From NCBI GenBank assembly GCA_024278215.1, contig JAJRTR010000194.1:1-36411 (forward strand): 36,411 nucleotides of DNA. The letters are read 5' to 3'. Source of the DNA: a bacterium (GTDB taxonomy: Bacteria; UBP15; UBA6099; JAJRTR01). The notes beneath the pieces are model-generated. The model had not been told where the DNA came from. It saw only the letters and a list, made by a program, of their open reading frames with translations, and made no database searches. The translations under genes and the position numbers were made by a program. Shown here piece by piece: positions 11,920 through 34,400 of this stretch; the first letter of the stretch is position 1, and every line of letters starts with the position of its first letter.

Positions 11920-11925
11920 TATAAT
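11920..11925 (+). promoter_or_regulatory. Perfect TATAAT -10 box just upstream of repeat copy 2
   Basis: TATAAT lies so that a transcript would start near 11932, almost exactly at the first base of the repeat element (11933). The -35 region is poor (no TTGACA-like hexamer at 16-18 bp). If used, it would produce an RNA carrying the whole element as the 5' leader of the M48 protease gene. The rest of the gap after the acyl-CoA dehydrogenase gene (11788-11919) shows no other feature. Confidence 0.35.
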
Positions 11926-11932
11926 GTTAGAT

Positions 11933-12108
11933 GCAATTGCAAAATTATGTTCGTAGCGAGGTCGAACGAAATTTTTCAGTAACAAGTCGGCGGTGCAAAA
12001 TCCCCGCAGGCGTACTCGCCAAGTACGTTGAGGAAGATTTTGTACCGACAAAGCAGCTATGGACAATTGCAGCCGACCGCAGCAGAATCGGAATTTTGCA
12101 ATTGGCTC
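11933..12108 (+). repeat. Structured repeat element, copy 2 (complete)
   Basis: Complete copy of about 176 bp. Its ends are a near-perfect 14-bp inverted repeat, GCAATTGCAAAATT and AATTTTGCAATTGGC (one extra G). Inside are a TTCGT/ACGAA hairpin, a GTCGG/CCGAC pair closing a central arm with GGCG-TACT-CGCC, and a 3' hairpin CAATTGCA ... TGCAATTG with inner CCGA/TCGG. The 3' TTGCAATTG can pair with either the 5' end or the internal CAATTGCA, so two exclusive folds are possible. It lies in the same orientation as copy 1 and ends 42 nt before the M48 ATG. A 60-codon open frame crosses it but has no ribosome site and is not conserved in copy 1. Confidence 0.75.
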
Positions 12109-12150
12109 GTTAGAATTATAATATTGTGAAGCTCTTCGAGAGAGAGTGTG

Positions 12151-12876
12151 ATGTTTATGAAAAAAACAGCGGTATTTATAATGATGGTACTGGCTTTGTG
12201 CATCTTCCCCGGCACATCATTTGCGAAGCAGCAGGGAGACAGCCCGGAGATTGAAGCGTTGAGAAAGCATGTCGAGCAGATCGCTTTCAAGCTTCGCGAC
12301 CAGATGTCGAGACCCGACAAATTGAGAAATGTACATGTGCAGAAGGGACCCGACATAAACGCCTTCGCGGACAACAAAGGCGATATAACTATTTTTACGG
12401 GGATGATAGATTTTGTAAGGAACGAAGACGAACTGGCAACTGTTATCGGGCATGAACTTGCGCACTTGTCGGCGCAGCATATAAAACGAAGTATCGGCAC
12501 GAGCATACTGGCGACAGTTGCGCAGGAGGCGATCGGCGGCACACTTGGCAACCTGGCGGGCTCGGCGCTTTTTACCAAGCAAAGCCGCAAGCACGAAAGG
12601 GAGGCGGACCGGCTGGGTATGCTCTATATGTGGCGCGCCGGGTACGATCCCCGTTTGATCTGGAAGTTCTGGACCGACATGGACAAGCAGATGAAAGCCG
12701 GAAATTCAAAAATCGAGAAATTCCTCAGCACGCACCCTGTGCACAGCGAAAGGATAGAAAACTTCAAGGTCCTGCTTGTGCGCTACTGCAAAGAATTCCC
12801 CGAACTCAACTATTGTCCGGGAATCATGGGAAACGAAGACCTGATAAGAACATTTAATGAATTCGAGGCCAGGTAA
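12151..12876 (+). CDS. Exported M48-family metalloprotease
   Basis: A 241-residue zinc protease. A signal peptide at residues 1-25 ('MKKTAVFIMMVLALCIFPGTSFA') indicates periplasmic location; the Cys in it does not form a good lipobox. The zinc motif is HELAH (H101-H105) in 'VIGHELAHLSAQH', with the third ligand E151 in 'HEREADRLG', and the M48 motif 'FLSTHPVHSERI' (191-202). This is the minimal M48 form without the TPR domain of BepA or the membrane helices of HtpX; such proteins are linked to envelope protein quality control. I chose ATG 12151 behind a GAGAGAG motif; GTG 12148 and ATG 12157 are alternatives. The 3' end overlaps the next gene by 20 bp, so the two are probably cotranscribed. 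Confidence 0.92.
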   Translation: MFMKKTAVFIMMVLALCIFPGTSFAKQQGDSPEIEALRKHVEQIAFKLRDQMSRPDKLRNVHVQKGPDINAFADNKGDITIFTGMIDFVRNEDELATVIGHELAHLSAQHIKRSIGTSILATVAQEAIGGTLGNLAGSALFTKQSRKHEREADRLGMLYMWRAGYDPRLIWKFWTDMDKQMKAGNSKIEKFLSTHPVHSERIENFKVLLVRYCKEFPELNYCPGIMGNEDLIRTFNEFEAR

Positions 12877-15741: not shown

Positions 15742-16240
15742 TTACTTCGTTATTGTCAATACGCAACCTGTGTCTGCGACGTCGATCCAGTACCCGTACC
15801 ATGGAATGATGTATGCGCTGTCGTTCGCTTCGAGTTTCCTGTAGCCGAGCGTGTCACTGTAGTAATAAATCGGCACAAGGGTTTTCGATTGTCCGGAACA
15901 ATCGAGACTCACTTTGCTGTCACCCCAGAATATGCTTTCATTGAACGGGTCCGATATTACATTCCAGCCCTGCTGTAGTGTGATCTGATATGAGTTCCCT
16001 GAATAATCCGTTCCGTGCGCGCTTACCGCACCTATATCCGATTCGGAATATATCCAGAGACCTTCGGCGAAGTCCATATCGACCTTCGTTTCGGAAGTCA
16101 GGAACTCGAAGGTGCCGCCGGTCTGTTTCACAATTTCATAAACGTTCACGCCGAAGACTGTCGCCGGGCTGATGTAGGCGTTCTGCTGAGAGACGCCGAC
16201 GAGCGACCAGCCTTTATTGATGATGAGACCCGAGGCAGTC
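15742..16240 (-). other. C-terminal GW-module domain of the giant protein
   Basis: About 165 residues with two parallel modules, 'GLIINKGWSLVGVS...' and '...ITLQQGWNVISDPF', each followed by a 'GLWIYSES'/'GYWIDVAD' type strand. This resembles the 'GWNLIS' beta-rich domains at the ends of other large secreted bacterial proteins. No LPXTG, PEP-CTERM, OmpA-like, autotransporter or RTX signature is seen. Confidence 0.55.
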
Positions 16241-19200
16241 GGAGTAACAGTCGTGCGCGCGCCGTCGCTGTCGGCTGTCGAATAAACGGAACCGTCATAC
16301 GCGAACGCCGCATAGTAATATGTGTAGCCGTTTGTCAGGCCCGTATCAAGGAACGACTCGCCGGCACCGTCGTATACTTCCGTGCCGTCGACAATGCTCG
16401 AGGGATAGCCGCCGAGTTTCCTGATGATCTTCGTGCTTGTCGCGGCTTCCGGGTCGGTCCACATGAGCTGGGCTTCCGTGTCGCCTGCGAGCGCCGTCAT
16501 AGCAGTGACTTCGTCGAGTGTGCCGAGTTGCACTGTGACGCCGTCGGAGTTCGCTGGAGTCGACTCCATACCCGCGCCGTTTTCAGCTTTCACCGTGAAG
16601 TAGTAAGTCGAGCCGACAGAGAGAGAAAGTCCGGACTTCGTTACAGTCGTGGCGGTTGCGTTATCGGTCCAGGAAACGATGTCCGTGCCGCCCGCTGTCG
16701 TACCGACAGCATAGGAATATTTGACGATGCCGCTTTCGGCGTCGGTCGAGGCGGTCCAGTTGGCGGAAAGTTGTGTCTGTGAAGTCGTCGTGTCGACATC
16801 AGCGCCTGTGCCGTCGTTGACGGAAGCGATTGTCGACGGTGCAGTCGCGTCGATGGTCTGGCCGTCGGATGTTGTGACGTTCGATTGGAGGCCCGCGCCG
16901 TTTTCGGCTTTCACGGAGAAGTAATATGCCTGTCCGCCGGTCAATGACAGTCCGGTTTTCGTGACGCTGGTGTTCGTGCTGTTGTCAGTCCAGCCGACGA
17001 TGTCCGCGCCGCCCGCCGTTGTGCCGATTGCGTACCAGTAGCGGGCGATACCGCTTTCGGTGTCGGTCGACGCGGTCCAGTTGGCGGTTAGTTGCGTGAG
17101 CGATGAAGAGTAATCAATATCCGCGCCCGCGCCATCGTTGACCGTAGCGATATCCGTCGGGTTCGTCGAGTCGCCTCCCGTGACCTGCTGGCCGTCGGAG
17201 TTCGCGGGAGTAGACATCAGGCCGACGCCGTTTTCGGCTTTCACAGAGAAGAAATATGTCGATCCTTCAGTAAGAGAAAGTCCGGTTTTCGTGACGCTGG
17301 TGTCTGTACCGTTATCGGTCCAGCCGACGATGTCGGTGCCGCCCGCCGTTGTGCCTACCGCGTACCAGTAACGGGTGATGCCGCTTTCGGCGTCGGTCGA
17401 GTCGGTCCAGTTGGCGGTGAGCTGGACGAGCGATTGCGTCGTGTCTATGTCCGCGCCCGCGCCGTCGTTGACCGTCGTTATCGCCGAAGGCGCACTCGTG
17501 TCGACCGTATAATCCACATCTTCATTCGTATCGGCAGTATCCGCGCTGCCGCCTGTGTCCGAACACGCAATGTAGACGACTTCACTTCCTTCGGCAAGTG
17601 AATCCGCCGAGCATGTATGGAATGTGACGCCTGTGCCGGAGCAGGTATTCTGGGCGGGCATGTCGCCGTAGGCCTGGTCGCTGAGAGACCACTTGCACGA
17701 CGAGTTTTCGTCGGTATCGAAAGTGATCTCGACGGAAGTGCTTGTAAGCCCCGAACCTTTCGCCGGGTCCCAGTTGCTCTGGACAGGCGGATCGACATCT
17801 ATAGTGTAAGACAGTTCGGTGTTGGTCGAGGCGGAATGCGTATTGCCGATAGTGTCGGTGCAAGCGATATAGACGACATCCGATGTGCCGGTGAGTCCCG
17901 ATACGGAACAGGTATGGCTTGTGCCGCCGCCGCCCGCGCACGCGCCCGCGATGTCCATATCGCCGTAAGCTTCGTCCGCGAGAGACCATCTGCATGTCGC
18001 GTTCTCGTCGGTGTTAAGAGTGATCGTCGGCGATGTTGTCGTAAGAGTTGTTCCGGCTGACGGCGACCAGTTGCTCTGGACCGGCGCGGATACGTCGACC
18101 AGTTGTCCGTCCGAGTTCGCCACATCCGCGACAAGTCCCGCGTTATTCTCGGCTTTAACCGAGAAGTAATACGTCTGTCCGTCGGTGAGTGTCAGTCCGG
18201 TTATTGTAACCGATGTCGTCGCGCTGTTGTCGGTCCAGTCGACTACATCCGTGCCGCCCGCGGTCGTGCCGACAGCATACCAGTATTTCGCGACGCCGCT
18301 CTCGGTGTCGGACGATGCAGTCCAGTTCGCGGACAACTGGGTCGAGTCGCCTGTCGTATCGACATCCGCGCCGGTGCCGTCATTTACCGATGTTATGGTG
18401 GCCGGAGCGGTTGTGTCGATTGTCTGGCCGTCAGAATTTGTCGCGCCCGATTGCAATCCGGCTCCGTTCTGTGCTTTGACGGTGAAGTAATAAGTGTCGC
18501 CGTTCGTAAGACCGAGCCCGGTGCGCGTGACGTAAGTGACGGCGCCGTTATCAGTCCAGTCGACTACATCCGTGCCGCCCGCTGTCGTGCCGACAGCGTA
18601 CCAGTATTTCGCGATGCCGCTCTCGGTGTCCGACGACGCCGTCCAGTTGGCTGAAAGCTGGGAGGTAGAACCTGCCCACGACGCGTCGACACCGGTTCCG
18701 CTGCCGTCATAGACTGTCGCTATGTCGGACGGTGGAGTCGTATCGTTGAAGTCGGCGGTCGCACCGTAGGAGGTCGTTATATTCGACATCATGCCCGCGC
18801 CGTTCTCCGCCTTTACCGATACGTAATAAGTTACCCCGTCGGTGAGAGCGAGTCCGGTGCGTGTTACGGAAGTTTCTGTGCCGTTGTCGGTCCAGTCGGC
18901 AGTGTCGGTTCCACCTGCTGTCGTTCCGATAGCGTACCAGTAGCGCGCTATGCCGCTCTGCGGGTCGGTCGAAGCGGTCCAGTTCGCCGATATCTCCGTA
19001 CCTGAAGATATGACATTCGAGTCGACGCCGATTGTGCCGCCGTCGTAGACAGTAGCGATGTCGGTGGGCGCGGAAGCGTCGATGAAATAATTGATGTCGT
19101 CGTTTGTCGCAATGGTGTCCTCGTTGCCGAGAAGGTCGGCGCATGAAATATAGACGTAATCGGAGCCCTCGCTCATGCCGCTTACCGCGCAACTCTGGCT

Positions 19201-22200
19201 TGTAGTGCCGCCACCCGCGCAGGCGTTACCTGACGACATATCAGTGTATGACTGATCGGTGAGAGACCAGCGGCAATAGGCTTCCTCGTCCGTAGTCAGA
19301 GTTATCGAGGGCGATGTAGTGTATATGTAATCGCCCTTGTCCGGGTTCCACGCGCTCTGAACCGGCGGGCTCGCGTCTATAGTGTAATTTATATCTTCGT
19401 TCGTCGCCGCGCTGTCTTCATTACCGGCGGTGTCGGTGCATGAGATGTAAACGTATTCCGCACCTTCGGACATACCGGTTACCGCGCATGATTGCGATGT
19501 CGTGCCGCCGCCGGTACATTCGTTGCCCGCCGACATCGAACTGTAAGAATCGTCGGAGAGCGACCAGCGGCATGTCGCGTTTTCACTTGTTGTGAACGTA
19601 ATCGTCTGTGATGTGCTCGTGAGATACGAACCCTTCGCCGGGCTCCATCCGCTTTGCGACGGTGGACTCACATCCACGGTCTGGCCGTCGGATGTCGCGA
19701 CTGTGGATTCGACGCCGACGCCGTTCTCCGCCTTGACCGACACATAGTAAGTCTGGCCCGGAATAAGTGTAAGTCCGGAGACACTTACTGTTGTAACGAG
19801 CGCGTTGTTCGTCCAGTCGACGACATCGGTTCCACCGGCGGATGTGCCGACGGCATAATAATAACGGGAAATTCCGCTTTCCGAATCGGACGATGAAGTC
19901 CAGTTGGCCGACAGATCGGTCGTCGACGCGACGTAGTCGATGTCCGAGCCTATGCCGTCGCTTACGGTGACGGTGGACGGCGGTGTGGAGTCGACAGTTG
20001 CGCCGTCGGAGTTTGTCGCGCCGGATTCAAGTCCCATTCCGTTTTCAGCTTTGACAGTGAAGAAATATTGCTGGCCGTGGCTGAGGCTGAGACCTGTCTT
20101 CGTTACGGAAGTGTTTGTGCCGTTGTTTGTCCAGGAAACAACGTCCGTAGCCCCGGCAGTCGTTCCTATCGCGTACCAGTATTTCGCGATTCCGCTTTCG
20201 GGATCGGACGAGCCGGTCCAGTTGGCAGACAGCTGGGTTGTGCTGCCCGTTACGTCGATATCCGAGCCGGTGCCGTCATAAACATCGGCGATGTCGGAGG
20301 GCGGCGTCGAATCCGACAGGTTGACCTGCTGCCCGTCGGAACTGACGACATTCGACAACAGGCCCGCTCCGTTCTCCGCCCTGACGGAGAAATAATATGT
20401 AGTACCGTCGGCGAGCGCGAGCCCTGTGTGTGTGACGGAAGTGTTCGTGCCGTTGTCCGTCCAGTCGACGACATCCGTGCCGCCCGCGCTTGTGCCTATT
20501 GCATACAGATACCTGACAATGCCACTCTCGGCGTCGCTGGAGGCTGTCCAGTTGGCGGAAAGCTGCACGCCGGATGTAGTCGTGTCTATATCGCTTCCCG
20601 TGCCGTCGTTGACAGTCGCGACGTCCGCGGGTGCGGTGTCGTCTACCGTATAGCCGAGGTCTTTATTTGTCGACGTTGTGTTCCCGTTGCCCTGTATGTC
20701 CTCACATGCGATATACACATACTCGGCGCCCGTGCTCATTCCGGTTACGGAACAACTGTGGTTTGTGGACGCCGCACCGGAACATGTGTTTTCGACGGGC
20801 ATCGAACTGTAGCCGTAGTCGGTAAGCGACCATCGACATGTGCTCGCTTCGTTCGTGTTCAGAGTGATGGTCACCGAAGTGTCCGACAGATATGAACCGG
20901 CCGCGGGCGACCAGTTGCTTTGTATCGGATCGCCGGTATCGACCGTGTAAGTAAGTTCCGTATTCGTGATCGAAGTGTCGGCGTTGTTATTTTCATCTAT
21001 GCAGTTCAGATACACTATATTCGCGCCCTCGGAAAGGCTTGTGACGCTGCATGACTGGCTTGTCGTGCCGCTGCCGCCGCAAATATTGCCCGGAGCGATA
21101 CTGCCGTAATCAGCATCCGCGCCCGCAAATTTACACGTCGCGTTTTCATCGGTATCGAAGGTAACCGTCGGGTTTGTCGTGCCGATTACCGAACTGTCGG
21201 CGGGCGACCAGTTACTCTGCACCGGGGGCGATGTGTCGAGCGTCGCGCCGTCGGAGGTCACAGTGCCCGACGTAAGGCCGGCCCCGTTTTCCGCCCTGAC
21301 GGATACATAATAAGTCTGTCCTTCCGTGAGTCCCAGCCCCGTCTCCGTCACAGATGTATTGGTTCCGTTATTCGTCCATGCGACAACGTCCGTTCCGCCC
21401 GCCGTCGTGCCTATCGCGTAGTAGTAAGCGGCGATACCGCTTTCCGCGTCGGACGACGCGCCCCAGTTTGCGGAAATCTGCGATGAATTTGTAATTACGT
21501 CCACATCGCTTCCCGTGCCGTCGTACAAGTAGGAGACATCGGCGGGAATGGTCGTGTCGATTGTCTGGCCGTTGGAACTCGTGGTTCCGGATTCGAGCCC
21601 AACGCCGTTCTGCGCTTTGACGGTGAAGTAATAGGTGTTCCCGTTCGTAAGTACGAGACCGGTTTTTGTAACCGATGTGTTCGCGCCGTTGCCGGTCCAG
21701 TCGACGACATCAGTCGCGCCCGCCGTCGTGCCTATCGCGAAGTAATATGCGGCGATTCCGCTTTCGGCGTCGGATGAGGCGGACCAGTTGGCCGAAAGCT
21801 GCGAGGCCGAGCCGGCCCATGTCATGTCGATGCCGATATCGGCACCGTCATAGACAATCGCGATGTCGGACGGTGCGGTCGTGTCGCTGAAGTCGGCGGT
21901 CTGGCCGTCGGAGGTAGTGACGCCCGACATCATGCCCGCGCCGTTTTCCGCCTTGACCGACACGTAATACGCCTGTCCGTCGTTCAGGGCGAGTCCCGTC
22001 GCGGTCATGTACGCGTTTGTTCCGCTGGTTGTCCAGTCGCGAACATCGGTGCCGCCGCTCGTCGTGCCGATTGCGTACCAGTAGGCGTCGATACCGCTCT
22101 GCGGATCAGACGACGCCGTCCAGTTGGCCGACAACTGCGTGCCGGATGTCACTGTGTCGATGTCCACGCCCGTAGTACCGCCGTCGTAGACGGTGGCGAC

Positions 22201-25200
22201 ATCCGCGGGCGCGGAAGTATCTATAGTGTAGTTAATATCTTCGTTGGTCGAGGCTGTTTCCTCATTCGCGTTGAGGTCCACGCACGATATGTACACGAAA
22301 TCGGAACCTTCGCTGAGGCCCGACACGGAACATGTGTGTCCTGTCGTGCCGCCGCCGGTGCAGACGTTCGCTCCGGGCATTGCGCTGTAATCGTTGTCGT
22401 TCAGTTCCCATCGGCAATAGGCGGCTTCGTCGGTCGTCAGGGTAATAGTCGGAGAAGTCGTGTATATGAACGCGCCTTTCGCCGGGTCCCACGCGCTCTG
22501 CGCGGGCGCCGTCGTGTCGACTGTGTAACCTATGTTCTCATTTGTTGTCGCGTCGTCCTCGTTTCCTGCTTCGTCGGCACATGCGACGTATACATATTCC
22601 GCACCTTCGTTCATCCCTTCGACAGCACACGACTGGCTGGTTGTCCCCGCACCGGAACACTGGTTCGCGGGCGGCATCGTCGAGTATGAATCGTCTGTTA
22701 GCGACCAGCGGCAGTAAGCGGCTTCGTCGGTCGTCAGGGTCAGAGTCATGGCGGCGCTCGTGACAGTCGCGCCCTTCGCCGGGTTCCACGCGCTCTGTAC
22801 GGGTGTCGACAGGTCGAGTTTCTGGCCGTCGGACGTCGCGACATCCGACTCCAGATTTACGCCGTTTTCCGATTTGACGGAAACGTAATACGTCGTGCCG
22901 TCGGTGAGTGTCATGCCCGATTTCGTGAATGAAGTCGCAAGCCCGTTGTCGGTCCAGCCGACGACATCCGCACCGCCCGACGTCGTGCCGATAGCATAAA
23001 GATATCGTGTTATGCCGCTCTCGGCGTCCGTGGACGCGGTCCAGTTGGCGGATAGTGAAGTTGTTGATGTGATGAAGTCGACATCGACGCCCGTACCGTC
23101 ACTGACTGTAACGGCGGAAGGCGCGGTCGCGTCGACGGTGACACCGTCGGAAGTCGTCACGGAAGATTCGAGCCCCATACCGTTCTCGGCCTTCACGGAG
23201 ATGTAGTAATCCTGATTCTGCGCGAGGCTCAGCCCAGTGTGCGTCATCGAAGTGCTCAGCACGTTATCCGTCCATGTAACAATGTCTGTACCGCCGGGCG
23301 TTGTGCCGATTGCATACCAGTACCGGGCAACGCCGCTTTCCGGATCGCTCGACGATGTCCAGTTGGCCGAAAGCTGCGTCGTCGAGGCCGTCATGTCGAT
23401 GTCCGCGCCGGTTCCGTCATACACCGATGTGATGTCGATGGGCGGCGTCGAGTCGGTCAACTCGACCATCTGGCCGTCCGAACTCACCGCGTTGGATTCG
23501 AGTCCCGCTCCGTTTTCGGCTTTGACCGACACGTAATATGTCACACCGTCGGAAAGCGCGAGTCCGGACTTCGTTACGGAAGTATTTGTACCGTTGTCCG
23601 TCCAGTCGACAACGTCCGTGCCGCCCGACGTCGTGCCGATAGCATACCAGTACTTCGCCACGCCGCTTTCGGCGTCGCTCGACGCGGTCCAGTTCGCCGA
23701 AAGTTCCGTGCCGGATGTCGTCGTATCAATATCGGCGCCCGTGCCGTCGCTTACGGAAGCGACATCGGCCGGAGCCGTGTTGTCTATAATATAACTGAGG
23801 TCCTTATTTGTCGTTTCGGAGTTTTCATTGCCGAGCGCATCCGCACACGCGACATACACTGCCTCCGCGCCTGTGCTCATGCCGGTTACCGAACAACTAT
23901 GGCCCGTCGCGCCGCCGCCCGAACATGTGTTCGCAGGTGCCATGGAGCTGTACGCGGAGTCCGTGAGCGACCATCGGCATGTCGCGTTTTCATCGGTATT
24001 CAGGGCTATCGTTTCGGAAGTATCCGACAGGTACGAACCCGATGCGGGCAGCCAGTTGCTCTGTACCGGTTCCATCGTATCGACCGTGTAACTCAATTCG
24101 GTGTTTGTCGACGCGGAGTCCTCATTGCCCGCGACATCAGAACATGCAGTGTATACCATGTTCGCGCCTTCGCTCAGGCCGGTGACGGAACAGATATGAC
24201 TGGTTGTTCCGGTGCCGCTGCAATCGTTCCCGGACATGCCGTCGTAGGAGAGGTCGGAGAGCGACCACCTGCAACTCGCGTTCTCATCAGTCGAGAATGT
24301 CACCGAGGGCGATGTTGTCGATAATGACGCGCCGTCCGACGGGTTCCACGCGCTCTGCACGGGAGTGGACAGGTCGACTGTAGCGCCGTTTGAACTCACG
24401 ATGCCGGAAGTGAGCCCGGCGTTGTTTTCCGCCCTGACGGATATGTAATATGTCTGTCCGTCCGTCAGGCTCAGCCCGGTTTTCGTGAACGACAGGTTCG
24501 TCCCGTTGTCTGTCCAGTCGACAACGTCCGTGCCGCCCTCGGTTGTGCCGATTGCATACCAGTACTTCGCCACGCCGCTTTCGGCGTCGCTCGACGCGCT
24601 GTAGTTGCCGGAAATCTGCGTATATGAATATATATATGTCTCGTCGGCGCCTGTGCCGTCGTAGACATAAGTGACATCAGCAGGCGCGGTATTGTCGAGT
24701 GTCTGGCCGTTGGAACTCGTCGTCCCGGACTGGAGCCCTACCCCGTTTTCAGCCTTGACGGTGAAGTAATAGGCCTGGCCGTTCGTAAGTGTCAGCCCTG
24801 TGCTTGTAACGGACGTGACCGCGCTGTTGTCGGTCCAGTCGACGACATCGTTTCCGCCCGCGGTCGTACCGATTGCATACCAGTAGCGCGCCACGCCGCT
24901 TTCCGCGTCGGCGGAATCCGTCCAGTTGGCGGAAAGCTGTGTGGACGAGCCTGTCCATGTTATATCCACACTTACCGTATCGCCGTCATAAACGGTCGCG
25001 ACATCAGATGGCGGTGTCGAATCGGTGAAGTCGGCGGACTGGCCGTCCGAGGTCGTCACATTTGACAACATTCCGGCACCGTTCTCCGCCCTGACCGACA
25101 CGTAATACATTTGTCCGTTCGTGAGCGACAGCCCGGTTTTCGTGACGTAAGTCAAAGCGCCGTTGCTCGTCCAGTCCACGATGTCCGTGCCGCCGATGCT

Positions 25201-25437
25201 CGTGCCGATTGCATATTGATAATCCGAAATTCCGCTCTGCGTGTCCGTAGCGGAAGTCCAGTTCGCCGAAAGCTGCGAGCCGGATGCCGTCGTGTCTATA
25301 TCGACGCCGACCGAGTCGCCGTCGTATACGGTGGCGATGTCGGACGGAGCGGAAGTGTCGACTGTATAATCTATATCTTCGTTGGTCGAAGCGGTGTCCT
25401 CGTTAGAGTTGGCGTCGGTGCAGGCGATATACACATA
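15742..25437 (-). CDS. Giant repeat protein, downstream part (same frame, after the internal TAA)
   Basis: About 3,230 residues continuing directly after the TAA. It has 18 A repeats in six triplets and ten whole B repeats in five pairs, followed by an FN3-like domain (about 16240-16530) and a C-terminal domain (15742 to about 16240). The C-terminal domain has two 'GW' modules ('INKGWSLVGVSQQ', 'LQQGWNVISDPF') and two cysteines near the end ('SLDCSGQ', 'TGCVLTI'). The first possible start is GTG 25434, with AAGGTG eight bases before it, but the same bases encode E-G-A in other repeats, so this is probably fortuitous. Without the upstream part it would lack an export signal. It is best read as the rest of one gene. 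A terminator lies 45 nt beyond its stop. Confidence 0.85.
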   Translation of the reverse strand, partial: YVYIACTDANSNEDTASTNEDIDYTVDTSAPSDIATVYDGDSVGVDIDTTASGSQLSANWTSATDTQSGISDYQYAIGTSIGGTDIVDWTSNGALTYVTKTGLSLTNGQMYYVSVRAENGAGMLSNVTTSDGQSADFTDSTPPSDVATVYDGDTVSVDITWTGSSTQLSANWTDSADAESGVARYWYAIGTTAGGNDVVDWTDNSAVTSVTSTGLTLTNGQAYYFTVKAENGVGLQSGTTSSNGQTLDNTAPADVTYVYDGTGADETYIYSYTQISGNYSASSDAESGVAKYWYAIGTTEGGTDVVDWTDNGTNLSFTKTGLSLTDGQTYYISVRAENNAGLTSGIVSSNGATVDLSTPVQSAWNPSDGASLSTTSPSVTFSTDENASCRWSLSDLSYDGMSGNDCSGTGTTSHICSVTGLSEGANMVYTACSDVAGNEDSASTNTELSYTVDTMEPVQSNWLPASGSYLSDTSETIALNTDENATCRWSLTDSAYSSMAPANTCSGGGATGHSCSVTGMSTGAEAVYVACADALGNENSETTNKDLSYIIDNTAPADVASVSDGTGADIDTTTSGTELSANWTASSDAESGVAKYWYAIGTTSGGTDVVDWTDNGTNTSVTKSGLALSDGVTYYVSVKAENGAGLESNAVSSDGQMVELTDSTPPIDITSVYDGTGADIDMTASTTQLSANWTSSSDPESGVARYWYAIGTTPGGTDIVTWTDNVLSTSMTHTGLSLAQNQDYYISVKAENGMGLESSVTTSDGVTVDATAPSAVTVSDGTGVDVDFITSTTSLSANWTASTDAESGITRYLYAIGTTSGGADVVGWTDNGLATSFTKSGMTLTDGTTYYVSVKSENGVNLESDVATSDGQKLDLSTPVQSAWNPAKGATVTSAAMTLTLTTDEAAYCRWSLTDDSYSTMPPANQCSGAGTTSQSCAVEGMNEGAEYVYVACADEAGNEDDATTNENIGYTVDTTAPAQSAWDPAKGAFIYTTSPTITLTTDEAAYCRWELNDNDYSAMPGANVCTGGGTTGHTCSVSGLSEGSDFVYISCVDLNANEETASTNEDINYTIDTSAPADVATVYDGGTTGVDIDTVTSGTQLSANWTASSDPQSGIDAYWYAIGTTSGGTDVRDWTTSGTNAYMTATGLALNDGQAYYVSVKAENGAGMMSGVTTSDGQTADFSDTTAPSDIAIVYDGADIGIDMTWAGSASQLSANWSASSDAESGIAAYYFAIGTTAGATDVVDWTGNGANTSVTKTGLVLTNGNTYYFTVKAQNGVGLESGTTSSNGQTIDTTIPADVSYLYDGTGSDVDVITNSSQISANWGASSDAESGIAAYYYAIGTTAGGTDVVAWTNNGTNTSVTETGLGLTEGQTYYVSVRAENGAGLTSGTVTSDGATLDTSPPVQSNWSPADSSVIGTTNPTVTFDTDENATCKFAGADADYGSIAPGNICGGSGTTSQSCSVTSLSEGANIVYLNCIDENNNADTSITNTELTYTVDTGDPIQSNWSPAAGSYLSDTSVTITLNTNEASTCRWSLTDYGYSSMPVENTCSGAASTNHSCSVTGMSTGAEYVYIACEDIQGNGNTTSTNKDLGYTVDDTAPADVATVNDGTGSDIDTTTSGVQLSANWTASSDAESGIVRYLYAIGTSAGGTDVVDWTDNGTNTSVTHTGLALADGTTYYFSVRAENGAGLLSNVVSSDGQQVNLSDSTPPSDIADVYDGTGSDIDVTGSTTQLSANWTGSSDPESGIAKYWYAIGTTAGATDVVSWTNNGTNTSVTKTGLSLSHGQQYFFTVKAENGMGLESGATNSDGATVDSTPPSTVTVSDGIGSDIDYVASTTDLSANWTSSSDSESGISRYYYAVGTSAGGTDVVDWTNNALVTTVSVSGLTLIPGQTYYVSVKAENGVGVESTVATSDGQTVDVSPPSQSGWSPAKGSYLTSTSQTITFTTSENATCRWSLSDDSYSSMSAGNECTGGGTTSQSCAVTGMSEGAEYVYISCTDTAGNEDSAATNEDINYTIDASPPVQSAWNPDKGDYIYTTSPSITLTTDEEAYCRWSLTDQSYTDMSSGNACAGGGTTSQSCAVSGMSEGSDYVYISCADLLGNEDTIATNDDINYFIDASAPTDIATVYDGGTIGVDSNVISSGTEISANWTASTDPQSGIARYWYAIGTTAGGTDTADWTDNGTETSVTRTGLALTDGVTYYVSVKAENGAGMMSNITTSYGATADFNDTTPPSDIATVYDGSGTGVDASWAGSTSQLSANWTASSDTESGIAKYWYAVGTTAGGTDVVDWTDNGAVTYVTRTGLGLTNGDTYYFTVKAQNGAGLQSGATNSDGQTIDTTAPATITSVNDGTGADVDTTGDSTQLSANWTASSDTESGVAKYWYAVGTTAGGTDVVDWTDNSATTSVTITGLTLTDGQTYYFSVKAENNAGLVADVANSDGQLVDVSAPVQSNWSPSAGTTLTTTSPTITLNTDENATCRWSLADEAYGDMDIAGACAGGGGTSHTCSVSGLTGTSDVVYIACTDTIGNTHSASTNTELSYTIDVDPPVQSNWDPAKGSGLTSTSVEITFDTDENSSCKWSLSDQAYGDMPAQNTCSGTGVTFHTCSADSLAEGSEVVYIACSDTGGSADTADTNEDVDYTVDTSAPSAITTVNDGAGADIDTTQSLVQLTANWTDSTDAESGITRYWYAVGTTAGGTDIVGWTDNGTDTSVTKTGLSLTEGSTYFFSVKAENGVGLMSTPANSDGQQVTGGDSTNPTDIATVNDGAGADIDYSSSLTQLTANWTASTDTESGIARYWYAIGTTAGGADIVGWTDNSTNTSVTKTGLSLTGGQAYYFSVKAENGAGLQSNVTTSDGQTIDATAPSTIASVNDGTGADVDTTTSQTQLSANWTASTDAESGIVKYSYAVGTTAGGTDIVSWTDNATATTVTKSGLSLSVGSTYYFTVKAENGAGMESTPANSDGVTVQLGTLDEVTAMTALAGDTEAQLMWTDPEAATSTKIIRKLGGYPSSIVDGTEVYDGAGESFLDTGLTNGYTYYYAAFAYDGSVYSTADSDGARTTVTPTASGLIINKGWSLVGVSQQNAYISPATVFGVNVYEIVKQTGGTFEFLTSETKVDMDFAEGLWIYSESDIGAVSAHGTDYSGNSYQITLQQGWNVISDPFNESIFWGDSKVSLDCSGQSKTLVPIYYYSDTLGYRKLEANDSAYIIPWYGYWIDVADTGCVLTITK

Positions 25438-28400
25438 TTAGGCACCTTCGATAAGCCCGGAGACTGCGCAACTCTGGCTCGTCGTGCCGCCGCCTGAGCA
25501 AGCGTTCGATCCTGACATTCCGGAGTAAGCGTCGTCGGTGAGCGACCAGCGGCAATACGCGGCTTCGTCGGTCGTCAGTGTTATAGTCGGCGATGTCGTG
25601 TCGACATACGCGCTCTTTGCCGGGTTCCACGCGCTCTGCGCGGGCGGCAGTGTGTCGATCGTATAATCAATGTCTTCATTTGTCGATGAATCGTCGGAGT
25701 TGCCCGCCTCGTCCATGCAGGCGACATATACATATTCCACGCCTTCAGATAGTCCGGTGACATCGCACGACAGTGAAGTAGTTCCACCGCCCGAGCACTG
25801 ATTCGCGCCGGACATCGAGCTGTACGAGATGTCCGACTGCGACCAGCGGCAATACGCGGCTTCGTCGGTCGTCAATGTAATAGTCGGCGATGTAGTTGTG
25901 AGCGTCGAGCCTTTTGCCGGGCCCCACGCGCTCTGCACAGGCGTTGTGAGGTCGAGCTTCTGGCCGTCGGATGTGGCGACTGCCGATTCGACCCCCACAC
26001 CGTTCTCGGACTTCACAGAGACGTAATATGTCGTGCCGTCGACAAGTGTCAGCCCGGAATTCGTGACTGTCTGCGACGTGCCGTTTCCCGTCCAGTCGAC
26101 TATGTCGGTACCTCCGGAAGTTGTTCCGACAGCGTAATAATATGCGATGACACCGCTTTCGGCGTCTGTCGATGCCGTCCAGTTGGCGGAGATAGTCGTC
26201 GCGGAAGTAATGAAATCGACATCCGCGCCCGTGCCGTCACTCACGGTTACCGCGGACGGCGCGGTGGCGTCGACCACAACACCGTCCGACGTTGTCGTGT
26301 TCGACTGGAGTCCCATACCATTTTCCGCCTTGACCGTGAAGTAATACGTCACTCCATGTGAAAGGGGCAGACTGCCGCGCGTCACGGATGTGTTGGTGCC
26401 GTTGTCGGTCCAGCCCGCGAGTTCGCCGCCGCCCGGCGTGGTTCCTATCTGATACCAGTATTTCGCCACGCCGCTTTCGGCGTCGGACGAAGCGGTCCAG
26501 TTGGCGGACAACTCCGTAGTCGATCCCGTAACATCGATATCGGTGCCAGTGCCGTCATATACACTTGTTATGTCCGAAGGCGGAGTCAGGTCCGACAGGT
26601 CGACAGTCTGGCCGTCCGAACTGTTGGCCGAACCGATCAGCCCCGCGTTGTTTTCCGCCTTGACCGCTACATAATAAAGTTGCCCGTCGGACAGCGCGAG
26701 CCCTGTTTTTGTGAAGGAAAGATTTGTTCCGTTGTCTGTCCAGTCGACTATTTCGTTGCCGCCGGCGGATGTGCCGATTGCGTACCAGTACTTCGCGACG
26801 CCGGTTTCCGGATCGGACGCCGCCGTCCAGTTGGCGGACATCTGTGTAGCCGATGTCGTTATGTCGATATCCGCGCCCGTGCCGTCGTTTATAGTGGCAA
26901 CCATAGTCGGCGGTGTTATGTCTACGATATATGAAAGTTCCGAATTTGTCGTGTCCGAGTTTTCATTATCGACCGGGTCCGCACACGCGATATAAACATT
27001 CTGTGTGCCGGTGCTGAATCCGTTTGTGAAGCACGAATGGCTCGTGGACAAAGAACCCGAGCAGGTGTTGCCGGAGAACATCGAGCTGTACGCGAGGTCG
27101 GACAGCGACCATCGGCATGTCGCGATTTCATCGGTGTTCAGATCAATAGTTGCCGAAGTGCCTGTAATGTACGAACCGTCCGACGGGTTCCAGTTGCTCT
27201 GCACCGGCTCCTGTGTGTCAACAGTGTAGTCGAGTTCGGTATTCGACGCCGCAGAATCCTCATTCCCCGCGACATCTGCGCACGCGACATACACTACCTG
27301 CGCACCTTCGACAAGTCCGGTTACGGAACATGTATGGGCTGTCGACTGCGATACATCGCAGGTGTTGCCGCCCGGCATCAGGTCGTAGGAAGTATCGGTC
27401 AGTGCCCAGCGGCACGAGGCGTTTTCATTTGTGGTGAATGTGACAGTCGGCGTGGACGTCGCTATAGTGTCGCCGTCCGCCGGGTCCCAGCCGCTCTGCA
27501 CAGGCAGCGAAGCGTCCACACGCTGTCCGTTCGAGCTTACAGGCGTGGATTCGAGTCCCGCGCCGTTCTCGGCCTTAACTGTCACATAATATATCTGGCC
27601 GTCCACCAGCGTGAGCCCGGAGCGCGTCACGGAAGTATTCGTGCCGTTATCCGTCCAGCCCGCGATACCCGTCCCGCCTGCCGTTATGCCGATGGCATAC
27701 ATGTATCTCACGATTCCGCTGCCGGGGTCCGACGAGGCCGTCCAGTTCGCGGAAAGCTGTGTGAGCGAAGTGGAGTAATCGACATCCGCGCCGGTACCGT
27801 CGTTGACAGTCGCAATATCGAGCGGCGGGCTGGTATCCACAAGCACACCGTCGGATGTCGCCACCGATGATTCGAGCCCGACACCGTTCTGCGCTTTTAT
27901 CGACACATAATAAGTCTGGCCGTCGATGAGAGTGAGCGCTGTTCTGGTGAGGTTCGTGCTGATTCCGTTACTCGTCCAGTCCACGATGTCCGTGCCGCCA
28001 GCAGTCGTGCCGACAGCGTAATAATAGGCGGCGATTCCACTTTCAGGATCGGAAGACGCCGTCCAGTTGGCGGAAAGCTGCGAGCCGAGCCCCCACAGGT
28101 CGACATCCGCGCCGGTGCCATCGTTTACAGTTGCGATGTCGGCGGGAGGCGTGGAGTCCGCGAAGTCCGTCTGCTGGCCGTCCGAACTCACGGGATTTGA
28201 CTCCAACCCCGCCCCGTTTTCCGCTTTGACCGTGAAGTAATAAGTAGTAGCGTCCGAAAGTGAGAGCCCCGTTCTGGTGACATTCACGCCGGTTCCGTTA
28301 TCCGTCCAGTCCACGATGTCCGTACCGCCCGCCGTCGTGCCTATCGCGTACCAGTAGGCGGTTATCCCGCTGCCGGTGTCGCTCGAGGCCGTCCAGTTCG

Positions 28401-28443
28401 CGGAAAGCGTGGTGCCCGATGTAACTGTATCTATATCGACATG
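19027..28443 (-). repeat. Ten-domain super-repeat, period 3135-3141 bp
   Basis: The landmark codon in the first A repeat of the 'type I' triplet (the residue before V-D-I-D in 'VYDG...VDIDT') starts at 28441, 25306, 22168 and 19027, giving spacings of 3135, 3138 and 3141 bp (1045-1047 codons). Within each period two five-domain blocks (AAABB, about 1.57 kb) differ consistently. Type II third A repeats begin 'VTVSDGTG' and their following B pair reads 'QSAWxPAKG'; type I B pairs end in 'QSNWxPxxGSYL'. The phase breaks N-terminal of about 30 kb, where B runs lengthen. This points to growth by duplicating the ten-domain unit (inference). Confidence 0.8.
25438..25440 (-). other. In-frame TAA nonsense codon inside a B repeat
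   Basis: The minus strand reads ATC GAA GGT GCC TAA TAT GTG TAT ATC GCC TGC. Sister repeats read E-G-A-E-Y-V-Y or E-G-A-D-Y-V-Y here; for example 'NEGAEYVYVAC' at about 22.6 kb uses GAA. GAA to TAA is one base change. The following base is T, which gives an efficient stop context, so natural readthrough is not favoured. Confidence 0.9.
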
Positions 28444-31400
28444 GTATGTGCTGCCGTCGTAAACAGTCGCCACATCCGACGGGGCGGTCGTGTCGATCGT
28501 ATATGATATATCCTCGTTGGTGGACGCCGTGTCTTCGTTTGCCGCTGTGTCGATGCAGGCGACATAGACATAATCAGCGCCTTCGCTCAATCCCGTCACA
28601 GCGCACGACTGTGTTCCTGTTCCCGCGCCCGAGCATTCGTTGCCCGCCGACATACTGCTGTATGCGTCATCTGTGAGCGACCAGCGGCAGGTGGCGTTTT
28701 CATCCGTTGTGAACGTGAGTGTAGTCGAACTCGTGGCGAGGAAAGAATCTTTCGCCGGGTTCCAGTTGCTCTGTACCGGCGGCAGTGTGTCCACCGTGTA
28801 ATTCAATTCCGTGTTGGATGCCGCCGAGTCGTAGTTGCCTGCTTCGTCGTTGCAGGCGAGATATACATATCCACTGCCCTGCGAAAGTCCCGACACCGCA
28901 CAGGACTGACTGGTTGTGCCGCCGCCCGTACATATATTGCCGCCGGGCATGGATGTGTACGCGACATCGCTGAGCGACCAGCGGCAGGTGGCCGCCTCGC
29001 CGGTTGTGAATGTCAATGTTGCCGATGTGTCGGTGAGCGTCGAGCCGTCCGCCGGGTTCCACGCGCTCTGCACGGGTGTCGATATGTCCAGCGTCTGGCC
29101 GTCCGAACTCGCGGGCGTCGACAGGAGACCGGCCTCGTTCTCGGCAGTTACGCAGAAGTAATATGTCGTTCCGTCAGTAAGTGTCAGGCCTGTCGCCGTT
29201 ACGCTCAGTGAAGCGCCGATGTCCGTAAGGCCCACGACTTCCGTGCCGCATGATGTGGTGCCGATAGAATACCAGTAGCCCGCTATGCCGCTCTCAGAGT
29301 CCGAGGAAGCGGTCCAGTTCGCGGACAGTTGGCTCGTGTCTGTTGTATAAGTGATGTCCGCGCCGGTTCCGTCGCTTACAGTGACCGCGGCGGGGGCGCT
29401 GCTGTCGATTGTCACACCGTCGGAATCCGCGGGATTGGACTCGAGCCCCATCCCGTTTTCGGCCTTGACCGTGAAGTAATACGTCTGCCCGTCAGTCAGC
29501 GACAGGCCGGTTTGGGTGACGGAAGTATTCGCGCTGTTGTCGGTCCATGCGACGACATCCGTGCCTCCCGCCGTTGTGCCGACGGCATACCAGTATTTCG
29601 AGACGCCGCTTTCGGGATCGGATGAAGCCGTCCAGTTTGCCGACAGTTGTGTTGTCGAACCGTCGAAGTCGATGTCCGAGCCCGTACCGTCGTTCACCGT
29701 TGCAATGTCCGACGGCGGCGTGCTGTCCGTGAAGTCCGCAACCTGGCCGTCGGAACTTGTCGTGAATGAAACAAGGCCCGCGCCGTTCTCGGCTTTCACA
29801 GTGAAGTAATATGTTTCGTCGTCCGTGAGCGCGAGTCCCGATCTCGTGACGGAAGTGCTCGGGCCGTTGTCCGTCCAGTCGACGAGGTCGTTTCCGCCCG
29901 CCGTTGTTCCTATCGAATACCAGTACCTTGTTATGCCTGTTTCGGCATCGGCGGAGGCTGTCCAGTTCGCTGAAAGTTCGGTACCCGATGTTGTCGTATC
30001 GATATCCGCGCCCGTGCCGTCGTTCACGGTTGTAATGGTATCGGGCGGCGTTGTATCTATCGTATAATCAATATCTTCATTTGTTGCGGAAGTATCTTCA
30101 TTGGACATAATGTCCGTGCACGAAATATAGACATATTCAATTCCCTGCTGTAGTCCTGAAGTCGAACACGAATGGCTTGTCGTGCCGCCTCCGGTACAGT
30201 TGTTGGACGATGAAATGGAACTGTAGCCGAGGTCTGTAAGCGACCATCGGCAATAGCCTGTTTCGTCGGTTGTGAATGTTATAGTCGGCGAATCAGTGCC
30301 CACGATACTTGATTTGGCGGGCGACCACGCGCTCTGCACGGGTGGACTGTAATCGACCGAATAGCTAAGTTCCGAATTCGTCGACACCGTGTCGCCGTTG
30401 CCCGCGGTGTCCTCGCAAGCGATATAGACGATTTCAGTGCCTTCGCTCATGCCCGCGACAGAACACGACTGGCCGTAAGTTCCCGCGCCCGAGCATGTCG
30501 CTCCGGAGGACATCGCGCTGTACGACTGATCCGAAAGCGACCACCTGCATGTCGCGTTTTCGTCCGTTCCGAATGTTATGTCGGTGGCGGAACTCGTGAT
30601 CGTCGAACCCGGCGACGGGCTCCAGTTGCTCTGCACAGGCGTCGAAAGATCGACGGTATAATTTATGTTTTCATTCGTTGCGTCCGAGTCCTCGTTGCCA
30701 AGCGAGTCCACACACGCGATGTATACATATTCCGAACCTTCGATGAGGCCGGTGGGATAGCACGTCTGTGAAGTCGAGTCGATACCGTCGCAGGTCTTAA
30801 GCGATGGAATGGAGGCATACGCGCCGTCGGTGAGCGACCATCTGCATGTCGCGTTTTCATCGGTCGTGAAAGTGATGGAAGGCGCGGTCGTATTGATGCT
30901 GCTGCCTTTGGCGGGCGACCATCCGCTCTGCTCCGGCGGCGATATATCGACAGTCTGGCCGTCGGACACGACAGGCGTCGATTCGAGCCCGGCGTTGTTC
31001 ACAGCCTTTATGCTGAAGTAATAAGTCGCACCGCCGCCAAGTGAGAGTCCGGAATGTGTGACGGAAGTGTTCGTGCCGTTGTACGTCCAGTTTACAATAT
31101 TCGTCGAGCCCGGTGATGAACCGACGGCATAATAATAGCCTTCGACATCGCTTTCGGCATCGATCGAGGCTGTCCAGTTGGCCGAAAGAGTGGTGAGCGA
31201 GTTAGTGGAATCTATGTCCGCGCCGGTACCATCGTTCACCGTTGCGACATCGTCGGGCGGCGTATTGTCTATCGTCTGGCCGTCCGAACTCACGGCAGTC
31301 GATTTCAGTGCCGCGCCGTTCTGTGCCTTTACGCTGACGTAATATGTCTGTCCGTTTGTAAGTGAGAGTCCATATATAGTGTCTGAAGTCACCGGCCCGT

Positions 31401-34400
31401 TGGTGCTCTGCCATGTCACGACATCCGTCGCGCCCGCGGTGGTGCCGATAGCCATCCAGTATGTGGATATCCCGCTTTCCGGGTCGGATGCTGCATCCCA
31501 GTTCGCCGACAATGTTGTCGTCGAGCCGGAATAGACGGCATCCGCGACCAGCCCGTCATAAACGTACGTTACGGGCGACGGTTCGGTCGAATCCGTGAAA
31601 TCGGCCATCTGGCCGTCGGAACTCACTTCGCCCGACTCGAGGCCTGCCCCGTTTTCCGCCTTCACAGTGAAGTAATACATCTGATCGTCGACAAGTGAAA
31701 GCCCCGTATGCGTGACCGACGTATTCGCGCCGTTGTCGGTCCAGCCGACGACATCGACGCCGCCCGCCGTTGTGCCGATAGCGTACCAGTATTTCGCTAT
31801 TCCGCTTTCGGCGTCGGTGGAAGCCGTCCAGTTGGCCGAAAGGATCGTCCCGAGCGCCGTAACGTCAATGTCCGCGCCTGTGCCGTCGTTTACTGCGGCC
31901 ACATCCGCGGGGGCTGTCGTATCTATCGTGTAATTTATTTCAGTGTTGTCCGCCGCGATATGGCTGTTGGCGAACATGTCGGTGCAGGCGATGTACACGA
32001 CTTCGGCACCGGTCGTCAGACCGCTCGCCGAGCATATATGAGATTTCGTGCCGCCGCCCGCGCATGTGTTCGCTCCCGGCATCGTATCGTAATCGTCGTC
32101 GGTGAGCGACCACCTGCATATCGCGTCCTCATCCGTGTTCAGGTCGATAGTCGGCGATGTATTCGGCAGGTACGAACCATCCGCCGGGTCCCAACTGCTC
32201 TGCACCGGCGGTGTCGTGTCCAGCGTGTAGGCGATGCTCTCGTTGGTGGACGCGGTGTCTTCATTGCCGTAGTCGTCCGTACACGCGGTATATATCGTGT
32301 TCGCGCCTTCTGCAAGTCCGGTCACGGAACAACTGTGGTTGGTTGTTGACGTGCCGCAACTGTTTCCGCCCGGCATGGCCGAGTAAGCCTGGTCTGTGTC
32401 CGACCACCTGCATGTCGCGGATTCGTCTGTATCGAAAGCGACAGTCGGCGTCGCGGTATTAACGGTGGAATCCTTCGCGGGGTTCCAGTTGCTCTGAACC
32501 GGAGCCGTCGTGTCGACAGTGTAGTCGAGGTCGGAATTCGTCGAAACAGAATCGGCGTTGTCCGCCATATCGACACAGGAAATGTACACGATTTCCGGAC
32601 CTTCGGACAGGCCGGTTGTCGAACAGGTATGCGAGGTTGTGCCGCTGCCCGCACACTCATAGGTTATCGGAATAGAATAATAGGGCAGGTCGGAGAGCGC
32701 CCAGCGGCACGTGGCGTTTTCGTCGGTATTGAAGGAGATGGCCTGCGAAGTCGATGTAAGCACAGTGCCGGTCGCAGGGCTCCAGCCGCTCTGTGACGGC
32801 AGGGTCGTGTCGAAGGTCTGGCCGTCGGAAGTCGTCACGCCCGATTGCACGCCCGCATAGTTCTCGGATTTCGCCGACACGTAATACGTCTGAGCTTCGA
32901 CAAGTGTAAGCCCGGTTCTGGTCACACCTTCGGAGAAGCCGACGTCCGTCCAGTCCACCACATCCGTAGCGCCCGCGGAAGTGCCGATCGCATACCAGTA
33001 GCGAAAAAGCCCGCTTTCATTATCGACGGCGGCGTCCCAGTTCGCCGCCAGCCTGTCGGAATCCGTCGTGAAATCTATATCCAGGCCGTTACCGTCCCTG
33101 ACTTCGGCGAGGTCGCCGGGTGGTGTGATGTCGACAGTCTGCCCGTCGGAACTTGTCGCCGCCGACTCGAGTCCCGCGCCGTTCTCCGCCTTAATGCTGA
33201 TGTAATATGTCTGCGTGTCGGTCAGGGAGAGTCCCGTCATCGTAGCAGTTGTCGACGTCGCGTTATTCGTCCAGTCGACAACGTCTGTAGCCCCCGCCGT
33301 CGTTCCGGCCGCGTACCAGTACGCGGTTATGCCGCTTTCCGGGTCCGATGAAGTGCTCCACGTGGCGGACAATTGTGATGCCGAGCCGACAAAGTCGATA
33401 TCCGAGCCTGTGCTTCCGTCATAAACAGATGATATTCCGGACGGTGGCGTCGTGTCGATGAAGTCCGTGGTCTGGCCGTCGGAGGTCGTAACATTCGACA
33501 TAAGCCCCGCGCCGTTTTCAGCTTTGACGGACACATAATAGGTGGTGCTGTCCGACAGGGAGAGCCCGGTAGCCGTCACAGTCGTTGCCGTCGCATTGTC
33601 GGTGTATGTCCTGATATTCGTGCCGCCCGGCGTCGTGCCGATGGCATACCAGTAGCTCACGATCCCGCTTTCCGCGTCGGCGGAAGCCGTCCAGTTGGCG
33701 GAAAGCTGTACGCCCGAAGTCGCGGTGTCTATATCCACACCGATGCCTTCGCCGTCATATACGGTTGCTATGTCCGACGGCGGGGTGGTGTCGACAGTAT
33801 AAGTAAGCTCGGAATTCGAAGCGGCATCGTCCGCGTTGGACAATGTGTCCTCGCAAGCGAAGTAAACAACCTGCGTACCGCCTGAAAGTCCCGACAGTGA
33901 ACAGGAATGATATGTGCTGCTGTCACCCGAACAACTGCCCGCCATCGAGGCGTAATCCTGGTCGGTGAGCGACCATTTGCAGGAAGCGATTTCGTCGGTG
34001 TCGAAAGTGATCGTCGGCGACGTGCTCGAAACATAAGTGCCGGACGCCGGGTCCCAGTTGCTCTGCACCGGCGGGGTGCTGTCGACATTGTAGAACAGAT
34101 CGGTGTTGCCGGACGCGGAGTCCTCATTCGCATAGAGATCGACACAAGCGATATAAACATAATCCAGTCCTTCGGACAGACCGCTTACGGCGCAACTCTG
34201 GCTGGTGGAAAGAGCGCCCGAACATTCGTTGCCCGCGCCCATTGTCGTGTAATCCGTATCACTCAGAGACCACCTGCAAGTCGCCGCTTCATTCGTTGTA
34301 AATGTTATAGTCGGCGAATTCGTGCCCACTGTCTGGGATGTCGCGGGGTACCAGCCGCTCTGCACCGGCGGCGTCGTGTCCACAACATAGTAGAGCGCAG

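Follow-up and report, generated by a model that had tools for sequence, protein, structure and literature searches.

An apparently new high-copy MITE family with copies upstream of rhomboid and M48 protease genes in a bacterium of the UBP15 lineage

Organisation of the locus

The window, by which we mean the whole stretch of DNA analysed here (36,411 nucleotides; contig JAJRTR010000194.1 of assembly GCA_024278215.1), contains two related copies of a repeat, as a preliminary description had stated, and each of them is followed in the same orientation by a protease gene. Behind copy 1 lies a gene for a rhomboid protease (214–1026, + strand; Pfam Rhomboid, PF01694) and behind copy 2 a gene for an exported M48 peptidase (12151–12876, + strand; Pfam Peptidase_M48, PF01435), and the Pfam matches bear out the identity first assigned to both neighbours. 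Taking the predicted starts ATG 214 and ATG 12151, the copies end 45 and 42 nt before the genes, in agreement with the 42–45 nt given earlier; the second gap depends on the start chosen and would be 39 nt for GTG 12148, the longest option of the ORF caller, or 48 nt for ATG 12157. Elsewhere in the window two giant ORFs adjoin one another on the minus strand (15742–25434, 3230 aa, and 25438–36315, 3625 aa), and this pair gives fibronectin type III and Ig-like matches.

Copy 2, delimited by means of genome matches, nhmmer and an analysis of the TIRs and flanks, is a full-length element of 179 bp (11930–12108, + strand) bounded by GATGCAATTGCAAAATT and AATTTTGCAATTGGCTC. Its left TIR, GATGCAATTGCAAAATT (11930–11946, + strand), has two mismatches to the TIR of the family, and its right TIR (12092–12108, minus strand) reads as a perfect GAGCCAATTGCAAAATT on that strand; the first base of the element is thus G11930 and not position 11933, where it had been placed. 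Directly outside the TIRs stands the 4-bp sequence GTTA, at 11926–11929 on the left and 12109–12112 on the right, as the two copies of a target-site duplication. At least 39 further places in the genome, from a list of the best 40 matches, resemble copy 2 at 89–94% identity over nearly its whole length.

Copy 1 (1–168, + strand) had been taken as a copy of 168 bp; it is rather one truncated by the assembly, the contig starting within the element. Positions 1–168 correspond in nhmmer to model positions 11–175, and the copy therefore lacks some ten model positions, the 5' TIR and any target duplication, while its 3' TIR ends at 168. It looks like a short natural variant because draft contigs break within these repeats. 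With 83.5% identity to the family consensus it is also among the most diverged members. Contigs of this draft often start or end within copies, for example at C136:1, C62:5, C28:6, C31:37 and C172:1.

Copy number, ends and target duplications

The TIR GAGCCAATTGCAAAATT, with up to two mismatches allowed, occurs at 662 ends in the 4.55-Mb genome (332 forward and 330 reverse; none for a control with the reversed pattern), which corresponds to about 330 elements and, if the copies average 178 bp, to some 1.3% of the genome. Detailed statistics were drawn from 40 stretches together with the window, amounting to 820,849 bases or 18% of the genome, and this 821-kb sample holds 57 full-length copies, nearly all of them 178 or 179 bp long. 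The element carries the 17-bp TIR at either end, is non-coding and shorter than 500 bp, and contains no transposase gene.

A perfect direct repeat of 4 bp stands directly outside the TIRs in 34 of the 57 copies, whereas shuffling the right flanks yields 1.3 such cases on average and never more than 6 in 2,000 trials; perfect duplications of other lengths are rare in the flanks of these copies. The duplicated targets differ from copy to copy and are rich in A and T (103 of 136 bases). Internally shortened versions of 52, 64, 82, 106, 107 and 122 bp, and one of 46 bp (L132), retain both TIRs.

One copy (L142) is interrupted by the insertion of another MITE-like element, a relative of a second and distinct MITE-like family of about 140 bp whose ends read GATTCGTGTGYAATAAGTC and which is found at C151:41136–41275 (L097) and C43:1385–1525 (L118), with a variant, GATTCCGGCGCAAAAAGTC, in L133. 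A recurring palindrome, GGATTTCTCACAAAGGAATCCGG, is seen just inside several unpaired TIRs (L136 near 1519, C109:7264 and C160:33004) and is possibly a third repeat family.

High copy number, palindromic structure and intergenic position would also be expected of a REP/REPIN or of a structured RNA already described. REPs would not be expected to have defined TIRs of 17 bp or target duplications of 4 bp, and a search of Rfam 15 gave no match at the gathering score, so that we consider a repeat of either kind most improbable.

Position of the copies relative to genes

The preliminary description favoured a cis-regulatory RNA dedicated to envelope proteases, acting as a two-state switch, on the strength of the two co-oriented copies lying at nearly the same distance before the rhomboid and M48 genes. 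With genes called by a simple codon-usage ORF caller, whose starts are approximate, 49 of the 57 full-length copies overlap no called gene. Over all layouts together, 32 copies have a co-oriented downstream gene and 17 an opposed one (P = 0.044, uncorrected for several tests), a weak excess which would suit a regulatory leader but which arises in part because the 17 divergent gaps count as co-oriented whichever way the element points. Tandem gene pairs are the only layout in which orientation is informative, and there 15 copies point with the genes and 10 against them, a bias that is not significant (P = 0.42).

Nor is there a fixed spacing of the kind that the similar distances in the window had suggested: the distance to a co-oriented start ranges from -13 to 467 nt and ten copies lie at 33–59 nt, so that two copies at about 40–45 nt are not unusual. 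As for the proposed link to envelope proteolysis, the neighbours prove to be functionally unrelated, with no protease theme. Among 20 downstream genes scanned with Pfam we find those for radical SAM, methyltransferase, ABC transporter, FMN reductase, GH92, response regulator, NAD(P)HX repair, TrkH, DUF362, ThiD2, glycosyltransferase and histidine kinase proteins, among others, and besides M48 a single protease, a C25 peptidase; one further neighbour resembles argininosuccinate synthase by inspection.

RNA folding and covariation

The RNA of copy 2 is predicted to form a fold that runs the full length of the element (-60.2 kcal/mol) and is more stable than expected by chance (z = -3.9), and the opposite strand folds likewise (z = -3.5), in keeping with a long imperfect palindrome. 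Copy 1, which is truncated, gives no significant fold (z = -0.26). The search for covarying base pairs that had been proposed as a check of the regulatory reading found none supported: in a consensus fold of 50 copies the covariation term is -0.67, and just 2 of 29 pairs have any double change, one each. As for the switch, the 3' TTGCAATTG can indeed pair with CAATTGCA, which recurs in copy 2, but this internal CAATTGCA is present in only 24 of the 57 copies, and we reject a two-partner switch for that reason. Unrelated neighbours, unbiased tandem orientation, variable distance, the lack of covariation and an unconserved pairing partner, together with target duplications that contradict it, leave a dedicated cis-regulatory RNA exceedingly unlikely.

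Promoter-like sequences around copy 2

The perfect TATAAT that had been proposed to start RNA at the first base of copy 2 does exist, at 11920–11925 (+ strand), but it sits in unique flanking DNA before the GTTA and we reject it as a part of the element; a promoter scan found no TTGACA-like partner paired with it, and a TATAAT occurs within the 20 nt upstream of only 2 of the 57 copies. At the other end, TTTGCA of the right TIR and a TATAAT in the flank are separated by a 16-nt spacer and together match 10 of 12 promoter positions (12095–12122, + strand), forming a candidate hybrid promoter.

Such a promoter, or a hairpin leader cleavable by RNase III, might allow the insertion at copy 2 to alter expression of the M48 gene incidentally, an effect which would be compatible with a MITE and which the strong fold of copy 2 and the reported behaviour of Correia and ERIC elements (PMC10969869) make conceivable. 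Against this, only 3 of the 57 copies have a TATAAT-like hexamer at the matching offset past the right TIR, no more than the background seen at other offsets; the promoter scan shows a weak excess, with three promoter-like matches per 400 bp scanned against 1.1 in shuffled sequence; and copy 1 has no significant fold. We therefore regard an effect on M48 as possible at copy 2, albeit somewhat doubtful, and as one that the family as a whole does not indicate. The broader proposal, that the element is a genome-wide source of leader hairpins or hybrid promoters with which part of the roughly 330 insertions tune their neighbours, M48 being one example, seems improbable.

Distribution and the search for a source transposase

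Six other genomes of the same order contain neither the element nor its TIR, and among 53 more distant genomes there is no full match, only a chance match of 27 bp. Plasmid, phage and viral collections gave no match at the sensitivities used, and a scan of the genome collection for the TIR listed at least two unpaired matches, about the number expected by chance and without the element.

The families searched for an autonomous partner were the DDE_Tnp_1, IS1380-type, DDE_5, DDE_Tnp_1_2, DUF772 and ISL3 transposases, and none of these gave a transposase bounded by the TIRs in this draft assembly, which breaks at repeats. DDE_Tnp_1 has three matches in the genome, none with the TIRs of the element; an IS1380-type remnant of 51 aa lies outside the ends of a normal copy, some 150 bp away; DDE_5, DDE_Tnp_1_2 and DUF772 yielded no TIR-bounded transposase, and neither did the ISL3 type, which is represented by a fragment at a contig edge. 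Inspection by eye of the sequence just inside the unpaired TIRs showed host genes or another MITE.

Interpretation

The TIRs, the uniform length, some 330 copies, 4-bp duplications, intergenic placement in both directions and a palindrome running from end to end lead us to conclude that the repeat is almost certainly a MITE, that is, a non-coding transposon derivative of about 178 bp, presumably mobilised in trans via its 17-bp TIRs and tolerated as an intergenic insertion. A miniature element that happened to land at these sites was the second reading put forward at the outset, and it is supported by the hundreds of copies in both orientations with target duplications, which the preliminary description itself had named as the findings that would show a MITE and speak against a regulatory role. 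A transposase recognising the 17-bp TIRs would have moved the element in trans, each insertion duplicating 4 bp of an AT-rich target, and the location of the copies ahead of two protease genes would then be a coincidence of tolerated intergenic insertion, with no regulatory system behind it. Several DDE families produce target duplications of this length; the enzyme was presumably a DDE transposase that is now lost, is too degraded to detect or is missing from the draft assembly. The family is apparently a new one and its mechanism apparently ordinary. The analysis removes a false lead on the regulation of envelope proteolysis and places on record a high-copy MITE family that appears to be undescribed.

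Comparison with known elements

The TIR of the Correia element differs in sequence from the present one. The two are alike in being short, non-coding, TIR-bounded and multicopy and in lying near genes; they differ in that Correia has characterised promoters, whereas none is conserved in the present family. In Neisseria this MITE is present in over 120 copies, which frequently lie immediately upstream of genes (PMC10969869). The ERIC elements of enterobacteria, present at 30 to 711 copies per genome across hosts (PMC10969869), share with our family a palindromic structure and an intergenic position, but are unrelated in sequence as far as the plasmid and phage collections, which gave no match, allow this to be judged, and the present family is distinguished by clear 4-bp duplications. 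The Chunjie MITE of Geobacter uraniireducens, at 178–235 bp and with conserved TIRs, direct repeats, intergenic sites and many degraded partial copies (PMC10969869), resembles it by description in size, TIRs, direct repeats and intergenic sites, and differs in number, its 38 full-length and 57 partial copies comparing with some 330 in the present family.
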